A DNA stretch of 64,000 bases, taken from assembly GCA_029268515.1 (NCBI GenBank), contig JAQWNP010000006.1, forward strand, positions 1 through 64,000. Direction: 5' to 3'. Under the pieces are notes generated by a model. That model saw nothing but the letters and a program-made list of their open reading frames with translations. It did not search any database and had not been told where the DNA came from. This DNA is from Phycisphaerales bacterium. Lineage in GTDB: Bacteria; Planctomycetota; Phycisphaerae; Phycisphaerales; SM1A02. Within the stretch, counting starts at the first letter, position 1. Each line of letters begins with the position of its first letter. A program made the translations under genes and the position numbers. Of the stretch, positions 39,059 to 48,521 are shown piece by piece.

Positions 39059-39219
39059 GTAAGCTTGGCTCAACTTCGGGGTAGGCACTGCTCACAAATG
39101 ACAAATCAATTTTCTAATAAGACAGATCCAAACAGCCGTTTCAGGCGTATGTTCCCAAAAGAATTGTCAATCTGATGGTCCTCTACAGCACTTCAATAAC
39201 AGCGAGATAATCAGTGCGA

Positions 39220-40209
39220 ATGATGCATTTGGTCTCATTGAAAATCTTCTTACTCCTTAGCTTGTGTAGTGTCAGCAATGCGGATTTATCTCTGACCTCC
39301 GTACCGAACTCTGCACCCGATGGATTCTCTCAACACTTCTCGAAATATATTGATGTGTTTGGCATTCCTGTTTACGCAACCTCAGCCTGTAGCAACAATC
39401 GAGTACGACATTGTGCCAATGTGCTTGCGCAGTATTTAGACAACAATGAAGATGGCCAGATTGACAACCCTGCAGTTCATGCAAAACTCATCAACAATAA
39501 CGCCAGCATGATTTTGTTTCGAAACGAAAATGAAGAAGAGAACTCAGACTATTGGCAAGATATCGATGATGAGTTCCTCGAATATGCAATGGCCCTTTTT
39601 AACTTTGAAATTAATAAGGATTGGCAACAAGACGGTGATCAAGAATTTGATGCCACACTTGAGGAGACACTACACCTGGTGACCTGGGCTGGTTACGCAC
39701 ATGCCTTCCCGAACGTTTTTGGCGAATTTTCCGGAACCCAAATTGCTGATGCGATGGATGCAAACATAGCCAACGGCTACTATCACTACGATGATCCAAC
39801 GTGTAACTACGCCTGCAATATCACTGAGTACACCTACTGGTCACTGACTTCTATTCTGGGAGCGCAGTCTGCCGCCTGGCGACAGGCACAAATTAACGAT
39901 GAGTGGGAACTACCCACCCCCCAATTGGTCGAATCTGAAGATTCGATCGCATTTGAATTACTGACCGATCCTCAATGGGCTTTACCAACTGCCCTACCAA
40001 ACGGAAACTATCGCCCTGGAGAAGATCTAAGTTGCCTGGCAGATCTCAACGAAGACGGCAGCGTTGACCTTGCGGACTTCAACCTATTCTTGATTGACTA
40101 TGGCTGTAGTGGAAAATCTTGTATTGGTGATCTCAATGATGATGGCTTAACCAACATAAGTGACTTTGCAATTTTGCTAATACAGTGGGGCACGGATGAC
40201 TGCAGCTAA
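39220..40209 (+). CDS. Exported protein with C-terminal dockerin-like repeats
   Basis: The 329-residue protein has a signal peptide (LKIFLLLSLCSVSNA) and a domain of about 240 residues with a calcium-loop-like stretch (DNNEDGQIDN) and the segment LEETLHLVTWAGYAH. Two dockerin-type loops end it (ADLNEDGSVDLADF, GDLNDDGLTNISDF). The ETLH segment might be part of a metal site, but no peptidase motif such as HExxH is present, so I give no enzyme name. A GTG at 39214 is an alternative start. It stands alone. Confidence 0.7.
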   Translation: MMHLVSLKIFLLLSLCSVSNADLSLTSVPNSAPDGFSQHFSKYIDVFGIPVYATSACSNNRVRHCANVLAQYLDNNEDGQIDNPAVHAKLINNNASMILFRNENEEENSDYWQDIDDEFLEYAMALFNFEINKDWQQDGDQEFDATLEETLHLVTWAGYAHAFPNVFGEFSGTQIADAMDANIANGYYHYDDPTCNYACNITEYTYWSLTSILGAQSAAWRQAQINDEWELPTPQLVESEDSIAFELLTDPQWALPTALPNGNYRPGEDLSCLADLNEDGSVDLADFNLFLIDYGCSGKSCIGDLNDDGLTNISDFAILLIQWGTDDCS

Positions 40210-41003: not shown

Positions 41004-41170
41004 TAGCTCAGGCTCCCTAAATGGGTTCAGGAATATATCCCACGACCACCGCAGGCACCTCAAGTCATCGTCTTAGCACCATTCGAGGCATGAATCACCC
41101 GTGCCAAACCAACTCGTTAACCCGATCAGCACGCTACACTGGGGCCTTCCTCTGTCTGTAAGGAGATCCC

Positions 41171-43219
41171 ATGATCATTGCTTCTATCGCCACCTGGATT
41201 CTGTTCATCTCAACATTAAACAGCCAAGACGCACCATACGACGACGCGCCAGTCCAAGAAGAAAGTGCACAAGTCGATGGATCAGCCAATGATGTTGTTC
41301 CTGTAGACACATCAGAGCCGGATGCGGAATCGGATTCAGATTCTGAGCCTGAACCCGAGCCCGAACCCGAACCCTCTGGGCCACCCTTGACCTATCAGAA
41401 CTTTGCTCAACTCAGCAAAGGGATCCAGCAGTTTTCTTCTAACAATGCTGACTCCGTCATGGTTGAATCTTATGGCACGAGTATCCAAGGACGTGAGCTT
41501 TGGGCGATACGCACAGCACTGCCCGGCAGTATTGAACCTGGCGATCGTCCTGCAATGCTCATTGTGGCTGGTCTTGATAGTAGGCAAATGGGTAGTACCG
41601 AAATTGCATTAGCCATCAATGAGACATTACTCAAAGAGGCTGAAGCTGATCCTGAAGGAGAAGCATCTTCGTTTCTTACCAACCATACGCTTTATGTTTT
41701 GCCTCGAGCGAATCCTGATGGAGCAGAAATGTTTTTTGCACCAGTACGTATGGAATACAACGGCAATCTTAGAACGGATGATGCAGATCGAGATGGGTTC
41801 ATTGATGAAGATCCACCTAATGATCTCAATGGCGATGGCATGATCACCATGATGCGCGTCATGGATCTTAATGATGCTGACATGATGTCTGACGAAAATG
41901 AAACACGACTGAGTATGGAAGCAGATTCCGACAAGGAGCAGCGAGCCCAGTTTTCCTTACAAGTCGAAGGCATCGATGATGACGGCGACGGTGAAATCAA
42001 TGAAGATGGCGTGGGCGGCGTTGATCTCAATCGCAATTTCACCCATGGACATAAAGAACACCAGAAGTCTGCTGGTGCTTATCCATTGTCTGAAGCGGAA
42101 TCAATGGCCTTAATTAAATATGTGCTGGCACGACAAAATATTGCCATCGTTGTCACTTACGGTGGAGCAGAAAATCTCGCATCATCACCAAAATCGAATG
42201 GAACTTATAAAGGCGGCACACCCAAGACTATTCTCGATGGTGATACCGGTATTTATGCTCATATTGGTGAGCGTTATCGCGAACTCACTGGCAATGAACA
42301 AGGCAAATCTTCAGACGCAAACGGCGCTTTCTATGCCTGGTCATATGCCGAGTTTGGTGTCCCTTCATTTTCCACCAACGCCTGGTCTGGACCTGATGAG
42401 AACGACAAGAAAAAGAAAGATGAAAACGCTGCCAAGAGTGAAGATTCTGAAGAACAAAGTGAACTCACACCATCTGGCATTGGTGACATCAGCTCAGAGA
42501 CAATAGAAGAACTCCGTGCACACGCTCAGAGCAGAGGCTTCCAAATGGGTGATCAAATGATGGCAAATGTCTCACCTGAGATGATTGAAAGATTTGCTGG
42601 TCGAGCAGGCATCACTATCCAACGCGTCAAGACCAAAGGCGGAAAGGCCTCTGATGCAGACGCCGCAAGATGGCTTGCTTACAGTGATGAAGAGAGAGAT
42701 GGTGAGGGTTTCGTTGAGTGGGAAGCATTTGAGCATCCTGAACTTGGCCCGGTAGAAATTGGTGGCTGGGCTCCATATTTTCGCACCACGCCACCGGCTG
42801 CTGAGCTGCGTTTGCTGGCTGATAAACAAGTACCCTTCATTTTGGATTTAGCGAAACGATTTCCAGAGGTGTCTCTGAGTCAGCCAGAAATCAAGCCATT
42901 GGCATCTGGACTATGGGAAGTAAAAGTCTCCCTCATTAACGATGGCTACCTTCCTACTGGTACTGCGATGGCTAAGAAAAACCGTCGGGCCAGGCCTTAT
43001 GTTGTTCGTCTCAGTACACCTATTGACTCAATCATTTCGGGTGCACGTGTTCATAAGATCTGGGCGTTACCTGGATCTGGTGGCCGTTATGAAATGCGAT
43101 GGATTATTGAAGCTGAAGATGGCTCGGAAATAACAATCACTGTCTTCAGTGAGAAGTTTGGTGAATTTGATCAAGCACATCAGCTTGTTGACAATCAGTC
43201 AAAGGAGAGTGACTCGTGA
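41171..43219 (+). CDS. M14 carboxypeptidase paralog lacking the zinc site (pseudoenzyme)
   Basis: The 682-residue protein has a signal segment, an acidic Glu/Pro/Asp tract (residues 30-70) and an M14 carboxypeptidase fold. At the first zinc motif the family HxxE is D136-S-R-Q139, aligning on HSRE of pancreatic carboxypeptidases. The third ligand His is Tyr330, and the catalytic Glu is Ala404 (STNAW against TNELW in the next gene). Substrate arginine and asparagine remain (LNRNF). Three calcium-binding-like loops (DADRDGFIDED, DLNGDGMITM, DDDGDGEINEDG) are inserted, as in the next gene. It cannot be a normal zinc peptidase and may bind the active partner or a C-terminus. AGGAG precedes the ATG; its end overlaps the next gene by GTGA. 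Confidence 0.85.
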   Translation: MIIASIATWILFISTLNSQDAPYDDAPVQEESAQVDGSANDVVPVDTSEPDAESDSDSEPEPEPEPEPSGPPLTYQNFAQLSKGIQQFSSNNADSVMVESYGTSIQGRELWAIRTALPGSIEPGDRPAMLIVAGLDSRQMGSTEIALAINETLLKEAEADPEGEASSFLTNHTLYVLPRANPDGAEMFFAPVRMEYNGNLRTDDADRDGFIDEDPPNDLNGDGMITMMRVMDLNDADMMSDENETRLSMEADSDKEQRAQFSLQVEGIDDDGDGEINEDGVGGVDLNRNFTHGHKEHQKSAGAYPLSEAESMALIKYVLARQNIAIVVTYGGAENLASSPKSNGTYKGGTPKTILDGDTGIYAHIGERYRELTGNEQGKSSDANGAFYAWSYAEFGVPSFSTNAWSGPDENDKKKKDENAAKSEDSEEQSELTPSGIGDISSETIEELRAHAQSRGFQMGDQMMANVSPEMIERFAGRAGITIQRVKTKGGKASDADAARWLAYSDEERDGEGFVEWEAFEHPELGPVEIGGWAPYFRTTPPAAELRLLADKQVPFILDLAKRFPEVSLSQPEIKPLASGLWEVKVSLINDGYLPTGTAMAKKNRRARPYVVRLSTPIDSIISGARVHKIWALPGSGGRYEMRWIIEAEDGSEITITVFSEKFGEFDQAHQLVDNQSKESDS

Positions 43220-44985
43220 ACCTTCGAACGCTCATCGTTTCTACAGTACTCACAGCGCTATCTATCACCTCTTCAAGCTGGGGCCAGTTCCAACACCCCA
43301 GTAAGGTGAACATCGCGTTTAATAAATTCTACGACTACGCCGAGATGACCAAGCTCCTTCATGAACTTGTGGATGCTTATCCTGAGTTGCTTTCTATCGA
43401 GTCAATTGGGCAGAGCGTTGGTGGTCGTGAGATCTGGTTGGTCAAGCTCAATAACCCAAAAACTGGCTCAGACAAAGAGAAGACGGCCATGTTCATTGAC
43501 GGCAATATCCATGGCAACGAATTACAATCTGCCGAGGTGGTGCTGTATACGATCTGGTACCTCACTAAGAGCTACGGACAAATAGAAAAGATCACCGAGC
43601 TGGTAGATGAACGTAGCTTCTACTTTGTTCCGATGGAAAATCCGGATGGCCGTGATTACTGGTTCCACCAGCCAGCAACCCCACACATGCTACGCGGCGG
43701 CATCATGCCGACCGACAATGATCACGATGGGGAATATGACGAAGATGGTCCCGATGATCTCGATGGGGATGGTCATCTCACAACGATGTGGATCAAAGAC
43801 CCACTCGGGCGGTACGAGCGAGATCCAGAAGATGACCGGTTCTTTAGGCGCGTTGGTCGTGATAAAGAACCTGGTGGATGGACACGACTTGGGCAGGAAG
43901 GCATCGACAACGATGGCGATGGCATGGTCAATGAAGATGGCATTGGTGGTTACGATCCAAACCGTAACTGGCCAAGTGATTGGCAACCTGAACATGTCCA
44001 ACGTGGCGCTGGCGACTACCCAACGAGCCTGCCAGAGACGCGCGCTGTTGTCGATTTCTTATTGGAGCATCCCAATATTGCTGGATATCAGGCGTACCAT
44101 AATTCTGGTGGCATGATTCTCCGCGGACCGAGCGCTGAATATTTGACCTATCCAAGTGGTGACGTACGTGTGATGGAAGCGCTTCAAGACATTGGAGCTC
44201 GACAACTCCCCTACTACGATCCAATGGTGAGTTGGAAAGACTTGTACACCGTCCATGGTGGCGAAGATGGTTGGGCTTATGAAGGCCTGGGAATTGTGGC
44301 CTTTACAAACGAACTTTGGACAAACAAGAAGATGTTCCAAGATGGAAACGATCCCTCAGAAGAGGAGGTACGTGAGTTTAGAGATCGAATGCAGTTCGAA
44401 GAAGTTTACGTTCCTCTACACGAGGTTGAGCATCCAAAATACGGCACGATTTTAGTAGGTGGCACCAAGAAATGGGCCAGCCGTGTGCCCCCACCATGGC
44501 TGCTTGAGGAAGACCTTCACCGCAACTTTGCCTTCACAATGGTTCATGCTGATGAAATGCCAAAAGTTGAGTTCGGCGCGGTGCAAATTCGTGAGCGGCC
44601 CAATGGACTCTGGGAACTCACTGTTGAGGTCAAGAATGACAAGATCATTCCAACCATTTTGCAGATCGCACGAAATAAGAAGATTGGCGCACGTGACTCT
44701 ATCTGCGTGAATTCAACAACTGGAGCTACGGTTGCTGCATCTGGCACCGTAAATTCACTGTTGCCATATACAAAGATGGATGCATCTGAAACACCAAAAC
44801 CCGAATGCCTCTGGAATGATGCGGGGATTGGCTCCAAAGGATCAGAGTTGTTTCGCTTCCTTATCGAAGGCCAAGGAAGTGTTGATGTGACATACACCAG
44901 TGAAAAAGGTGGCACGATTAACAAAACCGTTACCTTAGAATCAGTTGAGCCTGCCCACCCTGATGATGCAAAAGAAAAAGACTAA
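43216..44985 (+). CDS. M14 zinc carboxypeptidase, exported
   Basis: The 589-residue protein has a signal peptide and a complete M14 active site: His99 and Glu102 (GNIHGNE), His295 (YHNSGG), Glu366 (FTNELW) and the NRNW substrate-binding arginine. It should cleave C-terminal residues or peptidoglycan-type peptides outside the cytoplasm. Calcium-binding-like loops (DNDHDGEYDEDG, DLDGDGHLTT, DNDGDGMVNEDG) interrupt the domain at the same places as in the neighbouring paralog. A beta-rich C-terminal part of about 150 residues follows. The start is GTG at 43216 inside the stop of the previous gene, with GGAG nine bases before it. Confidence 0.9.
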   Translation: MNLRTLIVSTVLTALSITSSSWGQFQHPSKVNIAFNKFYDYAEMTKLLHELVDAYPELLSIESIGQSVGGREIWLVKLNNPKTGSDKEKTAMFIDGNIHGNELQSAEVVLYTIWYLTKSYGQIEKITELVDERSFYFVPMENPDGRDYWFHQPATPHMLRGGIMPTDNDHDGEYDEDGPDDLDGDGHLTTMWIKDPLGRYERDPEDDRFFRRVGRDKEPGGWTRLGQEGIDNDGDGMVNEDGIGGYDPNRNWPSDWQPEHVQRGAGDYPTSLPETRAVVDFLLEHPNIAGYQAYHNSGGMILRGPSAEYLTYPSGDVRVMEALQDIGARQLPYYDPMVSWKDLYTVHGGEDGWAYEGLGIVAFTNELWTNKKMFQDGNDPSEEEVREFRDRMQFEEVYVPLHEVEHPKYGTILVGGTKKWASRVPPPWLLEEDLHRNFAFTMVHADEMPKVEFGAVQIRERPNGLWELTVEVKNDKIIPTILQIARNKKIGARDSICVNSTTGATVAASGTVNSLLPYTKMDASETPKPECLWNDAGIGSKGSELFRFLIEGQGSVDVTYTSEKGGTINKTVTLESVEPAHPDDAKEKD

Positions 44986-45382: not shown

Positions 45383-45655
45383 GAGATCACTGCTTAAACC
45401 ACTCACTCGCAAGGGGGGGGCTCCTCATGGCACGACGCTGCTGGGATGGCAAAAAAGAAGGCGAGACCAAAGACTTAAGAGCATTGAATCGGGTCATTGC
45501 AAAAACCACAAGCAGCCAAACATGACTTAAAAGTGTGCTTTATCAGCTCAGGGGTGTTGAAGTTGGTCTGGGCCATAGCTTTATGAACAGCACGACTTCC
45601 GCCTATAAAACAGAAGAACAGCGAAATATTGGCCTTGCCTGAGTATTATGCTCTC

Positions 45656-46633
45656 ATGCTTTGTGTTTATCCCAACTTCCAGCTGCGTCGCCTGATATCC
45701 GTACTTGTGTTCACGTGTTGTTTCCAGACCGGAAATTGGGCTTTGGCTCAGGAGAATGTGAGCGACCCACCTAGCGAGCGGGCGCCAATGACCCTGCCCG
45801 ACACTGATCGGTGGACAACTGAGGCAGAAGTACCCTGGTCGTTTACCTACAAACCCTACGAAGAAGTACTCCGTAAATTTGTTGATGACAAGGGCCTTGT
45901 CGACTATGCCGGCCTGCTGACAGACCGTCAAGCACTGGATCGCTTTCTCGTTGGCGTGAGTCGACTCGAAATGAGTACCTATCGCCTTTGGTCAATGCGA
46001 GAACAAGAGGCCTTCTGGATCAACCTCTATAACGCACTTCTTCTGAAGGTAGCAACTGACTTTTACCCAATTGCACCAGAGCCATTCGATCCGGAATATC
46101 CGCGCGATAGTATCCGTCAACTGGGCGATGTTTTTACAAAAAGTTCAATTGAAGTACTTGGTGGCACAATGACACCAGACAACATTGAAAAGAAAGTCCT
46201 TCGAGACAGTTTCGATGACCCGCGTGTTCATGTTGCACTCGTATGTGCCGCCAAAGGCTGCCCACCACTGCGACAAGAGCCCTATCTTGGTGACAAGATA
46301 GACAAACAACTCAAAGACCAACTCGATCGCATGGTCAATGATCCACGGTATTTCTTACTACAGAAAGAAGAACATCGCGTTTATCTGTCAGAGTTGTTCA
46401 AATGGTATGGCGATGAGTATGTTGAACTTTACAACACATCAGAGGCTCCAAAAAGACGAAATGAGTCTGAGTCTGCTGCGCTTAACTACATAGGCACCGC
46501 ACTATCGCCCGAAGATCAGATCTATCTACGGAAGGAAAAATACGGTGTTCTGTATATCCCGTATGACTGGTCTCTCAACGACCAAGCATCTTCCTCTACT
46601 TCAACTAAAAGTAACCTCGATCCAAGGCCTTGA
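45656..46633 (+). CDS. DUF547 protein, exported
   Basis: The 325-residue protein has a signal peptide (RRLISVLVFTCCFQTGNWALA) and the DUF547 domain: VDYAGLLTDRQALDRFL, EAFWINLYNALLL, DDPRVHVALVCAAKGCPPLR and SELFKWYGDEY. The conserved Asn-Ala, His and Cys-Pro pattern suggests a transglutaminase-like catalytic fold, but no activity is established. It lies 6 bases before the epimerase gene. The frame extends to a TTG at 45629; the ATG at 45656 directly begins the signal peptide. Confidence 0.82.
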   Translation: MLCVYPNFQLRRLISVLVFTCCFQTGNWALAQENVSDPPSERAPMTLPDTDRWTTEAEVPWSFTYKPYEEVLRKFVDDKGLVDYAGLLTDRQALDRFLVGVSRLEMSTYRLWSMREQEAFWINLYNALLLKVATDFYPIAPEPFDPEYPRDSIRQLGDVFTKSSIEVLGGTMTPDNIEKKVLRDSFDDPRVHVALVCAAKGCPPLRQEPYLGDKIDKQLKDQLDRMVNDPRYFLLQKEEHRVYLSELFKWYGDEYVELYNTSEAPKRRNESESAALNYIGTALSPEDQIYLRKEKYGVLYIPYDWSLNDQASSSTSTKSNLDPRP

Positions 46634-46639
46634 TGAAAC

Positions 46640-47839
46640 GTGTCACGTACTATTGCAGTCATTACTACCTCACGAGCCGACTACAGCCATCTTTACTGGC
46701 CATTGCAGGCCATTAAGAAGGATCCCAATATCAACCTGCGTCTGATTGCGATCGGATCGCACTTCGCACCCACGTTCGGCAATACCGCCGATCAAATTCA
46801 TGCTGATGGTTTCGACGTAGATGCCAGTGTTGAGTGCCTCATCAATAGCGATTCTGATGTCGGCATGGCTAAGACGATTGGAGTTGCTGTCCAGAGTCTT
46901 GCCGATCTGCTTGGCCAAATGAGACCGGATCTATTACTGCTCATTGCTGATCGCTATGAGATGCTGGCCCCTGCTGCGGTTGCATTGGCACTCCGCATTC
47001 CCATTGCTCACATCGAAGGCGGCGAGATAAGCGAGGGAGCCATCGATCATGCTGTGCGAAATGCATTGACGATGATGAGCCATATTCATTTCGCGCCAAC
47101 AGAAGAGGCTGCGCAGCGTATTCGTGAAATGGGCGAGGAGCCATGGCGCATCCACTGCGTCGGCGCACCATCACTGGATCATCTGCGCTACAGCAAGTTG
47201 CCCGATCAAGATCAACTCGACAAACTGCTCGGCTGGAGGATAGAACAACCTCCATGTGTAGTGGCCTATCATCCTGTCACAATGTCTCGAGATACAACGT
47301 ACGAAGTAGACGCTGTGTTTGAAGCATTAGAACTCATTGAGCAACCTATTGCCTTCTGTTTTCCGAATGCTGACGCCGGAAGTCATCAGATTATCGATCG
47401 AGCACATCGCTTCTGTCGCGACAAAGAAAATCGACATGTTCACATCAATTTGGCACCCACTACCTATTGGGCGTTGCTACGAGAAGCAGCATTGATGGTT
47501 GGCAACTCAAGCAGTGGAATTATGGAGGCCGCCTCACTTGAGCTGCCTGTTGTCAATATCGGCATGAGACAGCAAGGACGCCTACGAGCTCCAAACGTCA
47601 TTGATGCAGCGCCTCAGACAGGTTCCATCAGAGCTGCTATCTCCAAAGCAAACGACCGCCACTTCCGAGAATCACTTCAAGGCATGCGTAATCCATATGG
47701 AGATGGAAGAGCAGCCGAGCGAATTGCTCGGGTACTTAGCGATGTTGAGCTCAATGATGATCTACTTGTCAAAAAAGCGCCGGCACTTAAACAATCGATT
47801 CATCGGGATTCACAACAACCACAGGTGACAAATGGCTGA
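46640..47839 (+). CDS. NeuC-type UDP-N-acetylglucosamine 2-epimerase (hydrolysing)
   Basis: The 399-residue protein has the epimerase B fold: TTSRADYSHLYW at the start, LIADRYEMLAPA, HIEGGE-x-EGAIDHAVRN, HPVT and GNSSSGIMEA. The NeuC branch (SRADYG-type start, HIEGGE..GAID) hydrolyses UDP-GlcNAc to ManNAc for sialic-acid-like sugars. No NeuB or NeuA gene is in the window, so the sugar made is not certain. The start is GTG at 46640. Its 3' end overlaps the polyferredoxin gene by 8 bases, an unexpected coupling. Confidence 0.86.
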   Translation: MSRTIAVITTSRADYSHLYWPLQAIKKDPNINLRLIAIGSHFAPTFGNTADQIHADGFDVDASVECLINSDSDVGMAKTIGVAVQSLADLLGQMRPDLLLLIADRYEMLAPAAVALALRIPIAHIEGGEISEGAIDHAVRNALTMMSHIHFAPTEEAAQRIREMGEEPWRIHCVGAPSLDHLRYSKLPDQDQLDKLLGWRIEQPPCVVAYHPVTMSRDTTYEVDAVFEALELIEQPIAFCFPNADAGSHQIIDRAHRFCRDKENRHVHINLAPTTYWALLREAALMVGNSSSGIMEAASLELPVVNIGMRQQGRLRAPNVIDAAPQTGSIRAAISKANDRHFRESLQGMRNPYGDGRAAERIARVLSDVELNDDLLVKKAPALKQSIHRDSQQPQVTNG

Positions 47840-48521
47840 TGAGGATCCACTTTCTAGGCGAGAGTTATTAGGAGGCAAGCTGTTTCGCCACCTACGCGAA
47901 TCACTCGCTGATGCAGTGGCCTCTCGATTACAAGCGTTCGAAGAGCTTGGATCCGAGCTGCAACCCAAAGCGGCCAAGCCGCCCAACGAATCACTCGTTG
48001 ATCCTGCCCATTTGCCACTTCTTCAACGTCCACCAGGTGCCATTGACGAAGAGATGTTTCTTGATCAATGCACCCGCTGCGGTGATTGTATTGAGGCTTG
48101 CCCACCTTCAGCAATTCTCGCTGCACCAGAGGCGTTCGGTCGCGCTGCAGGAACTCCAATAATTGACCCACGTATCCAAGCATGCGTGATGTGCACAGAT
48201 ACACCTTGCATTGCTTCGTGTGAACCAGATGTGCTTCGCGATGATTTGCCACTCACCATGGGCAGCGCCATGATTGTTCCAAGCGATTGCCTTGCTTTCC
48301 TTGGTCAATCTTGTACGCAGTGCACTGACGCTTGCCCAGTGACTGGCGCGCTTGACCTGACTGATGGTTTACCCAGTATCAATAATGAACACTGCACTGG
48401 ATGCGGTGTCTGTCATCAAGTCTGCCCCGCGCCCGTTAACGCCGTCATCATGCGCCCCGCTCAAGATCGACCCATTCCACCACCATCTGATGACGCCAAA
48501 AAATCCCCCCCTTGCAGCTAA
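47832..48521 (+). CDS. 4Fe-4S polyferredoxin (NapF/MauM-like)
   Basis: The 229-residue protein has cysteine sets for up to four 4Fe-4S clusters: CTRCGDCIEACP, CVMCTDTPCIASCEP, CTQCTDACP and CTGCGVCHQVCP. The N-terminus (LSRRELLGG) resembles a twin-arginine motif but no hydrophobic stretch follows, so it is probably cytoplasmic or only peripheral. NapF/MauM-type proteins carry electrons or help mature periplasmic oxidoreductases; no such enzyme lies beside it. Translation is coupled to the epimerase by an 8-base overlap. Confidence 0.82.
   Translation: MADEDPLSRRELLGGKLFRHLRESLADAVASRLQAFEELGSELQPKAAKPPNESLVDPAHLPLLQRPPGAIDEEMFLDQCTRCGDCIEACPPSAILAAPEAFGRAAGTPIIDPRIQACVMCTDTPCIASCEPDVLRDDLPLTMGSAMIVPSDCLAFLGQSCTQCTDACPVTGALDLTDGLPSINNEHCTGCGVCHQVCPAPVNAVIMRPAQDRPIPPPSDDAKKSPPCS

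Follow-up and report, generated by a model that had tools for sequence, protein, structure and literature searches.

In a 2024 review of pseudometallopeptidases, the M14 cases are exclusively eukaryotic, namely, AEBP1/ACLP, CPXM1, CPXM2, CPD domain III (CPD-III), and Ecm14 (PMC11266112). These proteins possess the M14 fold, have lost catalytic residues, and are exported; they retain H69 and mostly E72, are encoded as single genes or domains, and several of them act in the extracellular matrix (PMC11266112). Other close systems are the bacterial M16B heterodimers TTHA1264/TTHA1265, SPH2681/SPH2682, and AlbF/AlbE, and the mitochondrial processing peptidase (PMC12731061, PMC11266112). Like the gene pair reported here, M16B systems have adjacent genes, one for the active zinc subunit and one for a homologue without activity, and one-chain fused forms exist. 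However, their fold, that of a clam-shell endopeptidase, is unrelated, and the M16B complex was established experimentally, whereas a complex of the two proteins considered here is only inferred. In the open-access papers searched (subscription papers and preprints lay outside the search), we found no bacterial M14 enzyme-pseudoenzyme pair, in agreement with the original prediction, which knew of no described pair of this kind.

The pair is located in the window, i.e., the whole stretch of 64,000 nucleotides of Phycisphaerales DNA that was analyzed, and all features given below are on its plus strand. Gene A (41171..43219) codes for an M14 pseudo-carboxypeptidase of 682 amino acids with a hydrophobic N-terminal signal and an acidic linker, and gene B (43216..44985) codes for an M14 carboxypeptidase of 589 amino acids with a complete catalytic site. 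Direct reading confirmed the positions of both open reading frames (ORFs) and the predicted GTGA overlap (43216..43219), which is formed by the GTG start of B and the TGA stop of A and points to translational coupling. A Shine-Dalgarno-like AAGGAG motif precedes gene A (41160..41165), and the same motif is present within the 3' end of gene A (43202..43207), 8 bases ahead of the GTG start of gene B; with such a coupled start, similar amounts of A and B are plausible. Hydrophobic N-terminal segments were observed in 68 of 74 A and 65 of 67 B proteins, suggesting that both are secreted. Both proteins matched Pfam Peptidase_M14 (E-values of 1.6e-22 for A and 1.6e-47 for B) and no other Pfam family at E <= 1, and membership of either in peptidase family M16 was rejected on these grounds.

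By sequence, the closest solved relatives of the pair are carboxypeptidase T and the pancreatic enzymes. The AlphaFold2 model of A alone, obtained with 47 sequences, had a pLDDT of 86 and a pTM of 0.81 and corresponded to a complete carboxypeptidase domain that aligned with human CPB (1zli) with a Z-score of 31.6 and an rmsd of 2.3 Å over 273 residues; in a Foldseek search with this model, the best E-value was 1.3e-14. Given the confident model and this structural alignment, A is an M14 domain and not a chance likeness, and the Pfam match, the predicted structure, and the Z-score together bear out the claim that the first gene keeps the M14 fold. We also modeled a read-through A+B chain (L207), in which both halves were folded (pLDDT of 86) and their mutual placement was uncertain (pTM of 0.53), the alignment being shallow with only 12 truly paired rows; its B half aligned with known carboxypeptidases with a Z-score of about 36. 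Carboxypeptidase T and the pancreatic carboxypeptidases A and B (M14A; PDB 1obr, 1zli, 2abz) thus resemble A in fold (Z-score of about 31) and B in both fold and catalytic residues. A differs from these enzymes in having no zinc site, no general base, and no Tyr248 loop. Further differences, common to A and B, are an acidic insert of the calcium type ahead of the NR motif, an additional domain at the C-terminus, the lack of a visible prodomain, and the encoding as an obligatory pair. A charged insert in A (42383-42670, residues about 405-500) separates the pseudo-active site from the C-terminal domain; its pLDDT is low to medium in parts, and its length varies in other A.

Active-site positions are numbered here as in CPA (H69, E72, R127, N144, R145, H196, Y248, E270). 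The full site foreseen for the second gene was located in B by alignment. It consists of the zinc ligands H99 and E102 (43510..43521) and H295 (44098..44100; H196 in CPA), R160 (43693..43695; R127), the substrate carboxylate residues N249-R250 (43960..43965; N144-R145), Y344 (44245..44247; Y248, present in 170 of 171 B), and the catalytic Glu366 (44311..44313; E270). In A, D136-S-R-Q139 (41576..41587) occupies the place of HxxE (H69/E72) and aligns with H99-G-N-E102 of B, exactly as proposed. The two other replacements in the original prediction were correct as losses and needed adjustment in the residue named. In the segment Y330-G-G-A-E334 (42158..42172), which replaces that with His196, it is Gly331 and not Tyr330 that faces His295 of B, Tyr330 being aligned with the Tyr preceding this His. 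The dipeptide N403-A404 (42377..42382) replaces the catalytic Glu270, and its alignment with Glu366 of B is ambiguous by one residue, so that either Asn403 or the originally named Ala404 may be the counterpart.

For the analysis of the family, about 200 loci were fetched, and 182 A and 171 B were compared. H69, E72, R127, N144, R145, H196, and E270 were found in every B in which the position was covered (170/170). The four zinc and base residues H69/E72/H196/E270 were all absent in 166 A, one was present in 14 A and two were present in 2 A; E270 did not occur in any of 180 A, and the Tyr248 column was a gap in 181 of 182 A. None of the 182 A had all three zinc ligands, and a search for A orthologs with an intact site, which had been named as refuting evidence, returned 0/182. 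The two A with two residues, L176 (HxxE) and L190 (E and H), are both early-branching, a position that would fit a stepwise loss of the site after duplication. The window's A is more degenerate than the consensus of its order, D-G-x-H ... G-R-H-D. The substrate arginine was expected to be kept in A; this applies to the window's protein (R288) but not to the A family, in which it is present in 111 of 182 sequences as compared with 171 of 171 B. Judged from its sequence, A is an M14 pseudopeptidase, that is, an enzyme homologue without essential residues that is under selection. From the same residues, A is predicted to be devoid of catalysis and B to be a zinc enzyme with carboxypeptidase activity.

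The calcium-like loops noted originally are real: a first pair of calcium-type acidic loops (D204-G223; 41780..41839) and a further loop (E266-D279; 41966..42007) are nearly invariant in the 182 A, with D206, D208, D218, E278, and D279 present in 182/182 and D269, D271, and D273 in 181/182. The corresponding type of loops in B is formed by D167-G186 (43714..43773). The motif suggests that the loops of A bind calcium. In total, 39 positions were at least 90% conserved in A, many of them within the loops or the C-terminal domain, and 27 of these are common to B. For clean close pairs (those with over-extended ORFs, e.g., L057, L060-L062, L070, and L071, were set aside), dN/dS was about 0.1-0.27 for A and about 0.05-0.16 for B, ratios indicating that A is under purifying selection.

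The pair was detected in about 175 non-redundant loci, mostly of planctomycetes. At E <= 0.001, homologs of A were present in 114 of 201 relatives, a count that takes in cross-matches to B. With an A profile and a cutoff of 1e-20, matches were obtained in 93 of the 343 phylum-wide genomes and in 34 of 248 from the class. A collection of named genomes contributed 80 more loci. Isolates with the pair include the Bacteroidota Maribellus luteus, Maribellus sp. CM-23, and Siphonobacter aquaeclarae DSM 21668. Metagenome-assembled genomes (MAGs) with the pair are labeled Acidobacteriota, Aminicenantes, Gemmatimonadota, Calditrichota, KSB1, Zixibacteria, Verrucomicrobia, and Rhodothermales; labels given to MAGs by depositors can be wrong. 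One locus labeled Vicinamibacteraceae (L212), for example, is the same contig region as G131:C50, which is placed in the planctomycete order of the window, and is likely a mislabeled MAG. The original prediction had called for a search for the same pair in other planctomycetes; it is present there, with the ligand loss conserved in A, and beyond planctomycetes as well. Chance is excluded by this conservation across phyla.

The arrangement of the two genes was constant. In a script-based count, which leaves out nine A at a contig or locus edge, B was directly downstream of A on the same strand in 176 of the 177 cases with downstream sequence. The exception (L172) was due to a mis-extended B ORF, and its B, at G357:C6:41673-43262, is also directly downstream of A. 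The 4-base overlap was the commonest single spacing value (53 loci). Furthermore, in the phylum sample, every genome that gave a strong B match (E <= 1e-150) also gave A-profile matches. Since the genes are always adjacent, the "dead" A is probably a partner that the live B cannot do without. A triple A-B-B was observed in a Bryobacter MAG (L257, 7926-13185), in which two adjacent active copies follow one A.

Recurring neighbor genes were seen only in close relatives, and none accompanies the pair widely, so that gene context provides no clue to the substrate. In the window, an exported protein of 331 amino acids (39214-40209) has a C-terminal dockerin-like repeat (Pfam Dockerin_1 below the cutoff), and a tight run of genes for a DUF547 protein, a UDP-GlcNAc 2-epimerase, and a 4Fe-4S protein, the last two overlapping, is found at 45629-48521. 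The only other M14 gene of the window's genome (G000:C6:513584-514414, L001) is a frame of 783 aa in which H/E/NR/H are intact and the C-terminal stretch is dockerin-like; its ending is similar to that of the 331-aa protein.

In an unrooted tree, the 182 A were separated from the 171 B and 3 one-gene relatives with a split support of 0.996. As all A are apart from all B at one edge, the pair derives from one ancient duplication and has been inherited as a unit. When rooted with the third M14 protein of the genome, A became paraphyletic with weak support, likely a long-branch effect, and for this reason only the unrooted split was used. The mean A-B identity (27%, as compared with 34% for A-A) and the deep split ruled out a recent tandem duplicate. 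The one-gene relatives near B (L175, L193, and L194, in G358, G379, and G353) have the full H,E,R,N,R,H,E set, an H-S-x-E motif, and no adjoining A; they are a useful outgroup for the duplication. The distance matrices of A and B were correlated (Spearman coefficient of 0.82, at most 0.11 after shuffling), which is to be expected from inheritance as a unit and does not by itself prove contact. In one genus only, A and B are fused: in G016, the two are joined in-frame in a single ORF of 1235 aa, with no signal peptide inside it, and in a second species of this genus (G052) the frame likewise continues uninterrupted from the last part of A into B for as far as the contig extends.

We consider it about 70% probable that A and B form an exported two-component carboxypeptidase, composed of the catalytic B and the dedicated non-catalytic subunit A. 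On the genetic side, the claim of a dedicated partner finds support in the invariant adjacency and order, the fusion in two species of one genus, and the presence of A with strong B in the genomes checked. B would be the zinc enzyme that removes C-terminal residues, and A would be an ancient paralogue devoid of zinc and catalysis that keeps the fold, the calcium-type loops, and a C-terminal beta domain. B may need A for folding or stability, for shaping access to the active site, or for holding the substrate, and by analogy the pair would work like the bacterial M16B pairs. We infer the physical A-B complex, the way in which A helps B, and the substrate from these observations; co-transcription and co-inheritance can persist without physical contact, and the read-through model, at its pTM and alignment depth, lends no support to a defined interface, points that count against this explanation.

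It is unlikely, in our view, that A and B do not bind each other and that A acts as a separate exported binder that brings or retains substrate near B, the operon matching dosage only. The ligands of such a binder could be peptide C-termini, peptidoglycan, or another polymer. The fused-chain model, which at its pTM and alignment depth does not define an interface, and the substrate arginine kept in more than half of the A family are compatible with this idea. However, A shows no conservation of the arginine, R127, or N144, so that the family has not retained the old carboxylate pocket as a shared site of binding. The fusion also suggests one-to-one action. Somewhat less probable still is that A serves as a folding helper or inhibitor in trans, a substitute for the missing prodomain of B that would not be part of the mature enzyme. 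M14A enzymes often have a prodomain, B has no recognizable one, and A is always encoded first; yet A is larger than B and has lost no part of the fold, nor the C-terminal domain, and in the fused chain it is still joined to B, where no signal for cleavage is evident.

We regard it as very improbable that A is catalytically active through a metal site that was moved or altered, for instance [D/E]-x-x-H in place of H-x-x-E. The replacements in A are indeed patterned, with an acid at position 69 in 150/181, His at 72 in 91/181, and Gly at 196 in 140/182 sequences, and many A in the window's order add H-D two residues past the lost His196. However, His at 72 is present in only half of the sequences, the later His is lost in many with no clear coupling between the two, the window's own A has neither, and both the general base and the Tyr248 loop have been lost. 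The supply of ligands by another part of A had been set beforehand as refuting, and no conserved His/Cys set able to replace the site was found: H522, in the C-terminal domain and common to B (H406), is the only His position conserved in at least 70% of the A family (93%), followed by H292 (68%), and no conserved Cys was found in the 182 A. The view of A as a decaying, non-functional duplicate has practically nothing left to recommend it. A does evolve about twice as fast as B, but it is kept in all pairs across phyla, with dN/dS well below 1 and invariant loops, and decay was refuted by this conservation and by the dN/dS values.

Returning to the two-component carboxypeptidase, the position equivalent to CPA 255, which sets the S1' preference in carboxypeptidases A/B, varied among the 171 B (V in 83, I in 27, D in 21, T in 12, L in 12, A in 7, and K in 6). 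Substrates therefore probably differ among lineages with the same pair. The window's B has D351 (44266-44268) at this position and may act on basic C-termini. With a constant A next to a variable pocket in B, a structural role would suit A better than recognition of the C-terminal residue. More tentatively, and with more doubt than confidence, the pair may represent an ancient, widespread, calcium-dependent two-subunit bacterial carboxypeptidase, the first in M14, in which the dead cleft is a surface for substrate recognition or gating.

Enzyme-pseudoenzyme pairs are a known principle, and the M14 pseudopeptidases in the review cited above are eukaryotic and single, whereas the A protein described here is bacterial, has lost the entire site, and always adjoins an active paralogue. 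Annotation based on Pfam names A a "zinc carboxypeptidase," which is wrong for the whole A family. The loops of A show what selection kept after catalysis was lost, and since several bacterial phyla have retained the pair, its dead member must be of importance.
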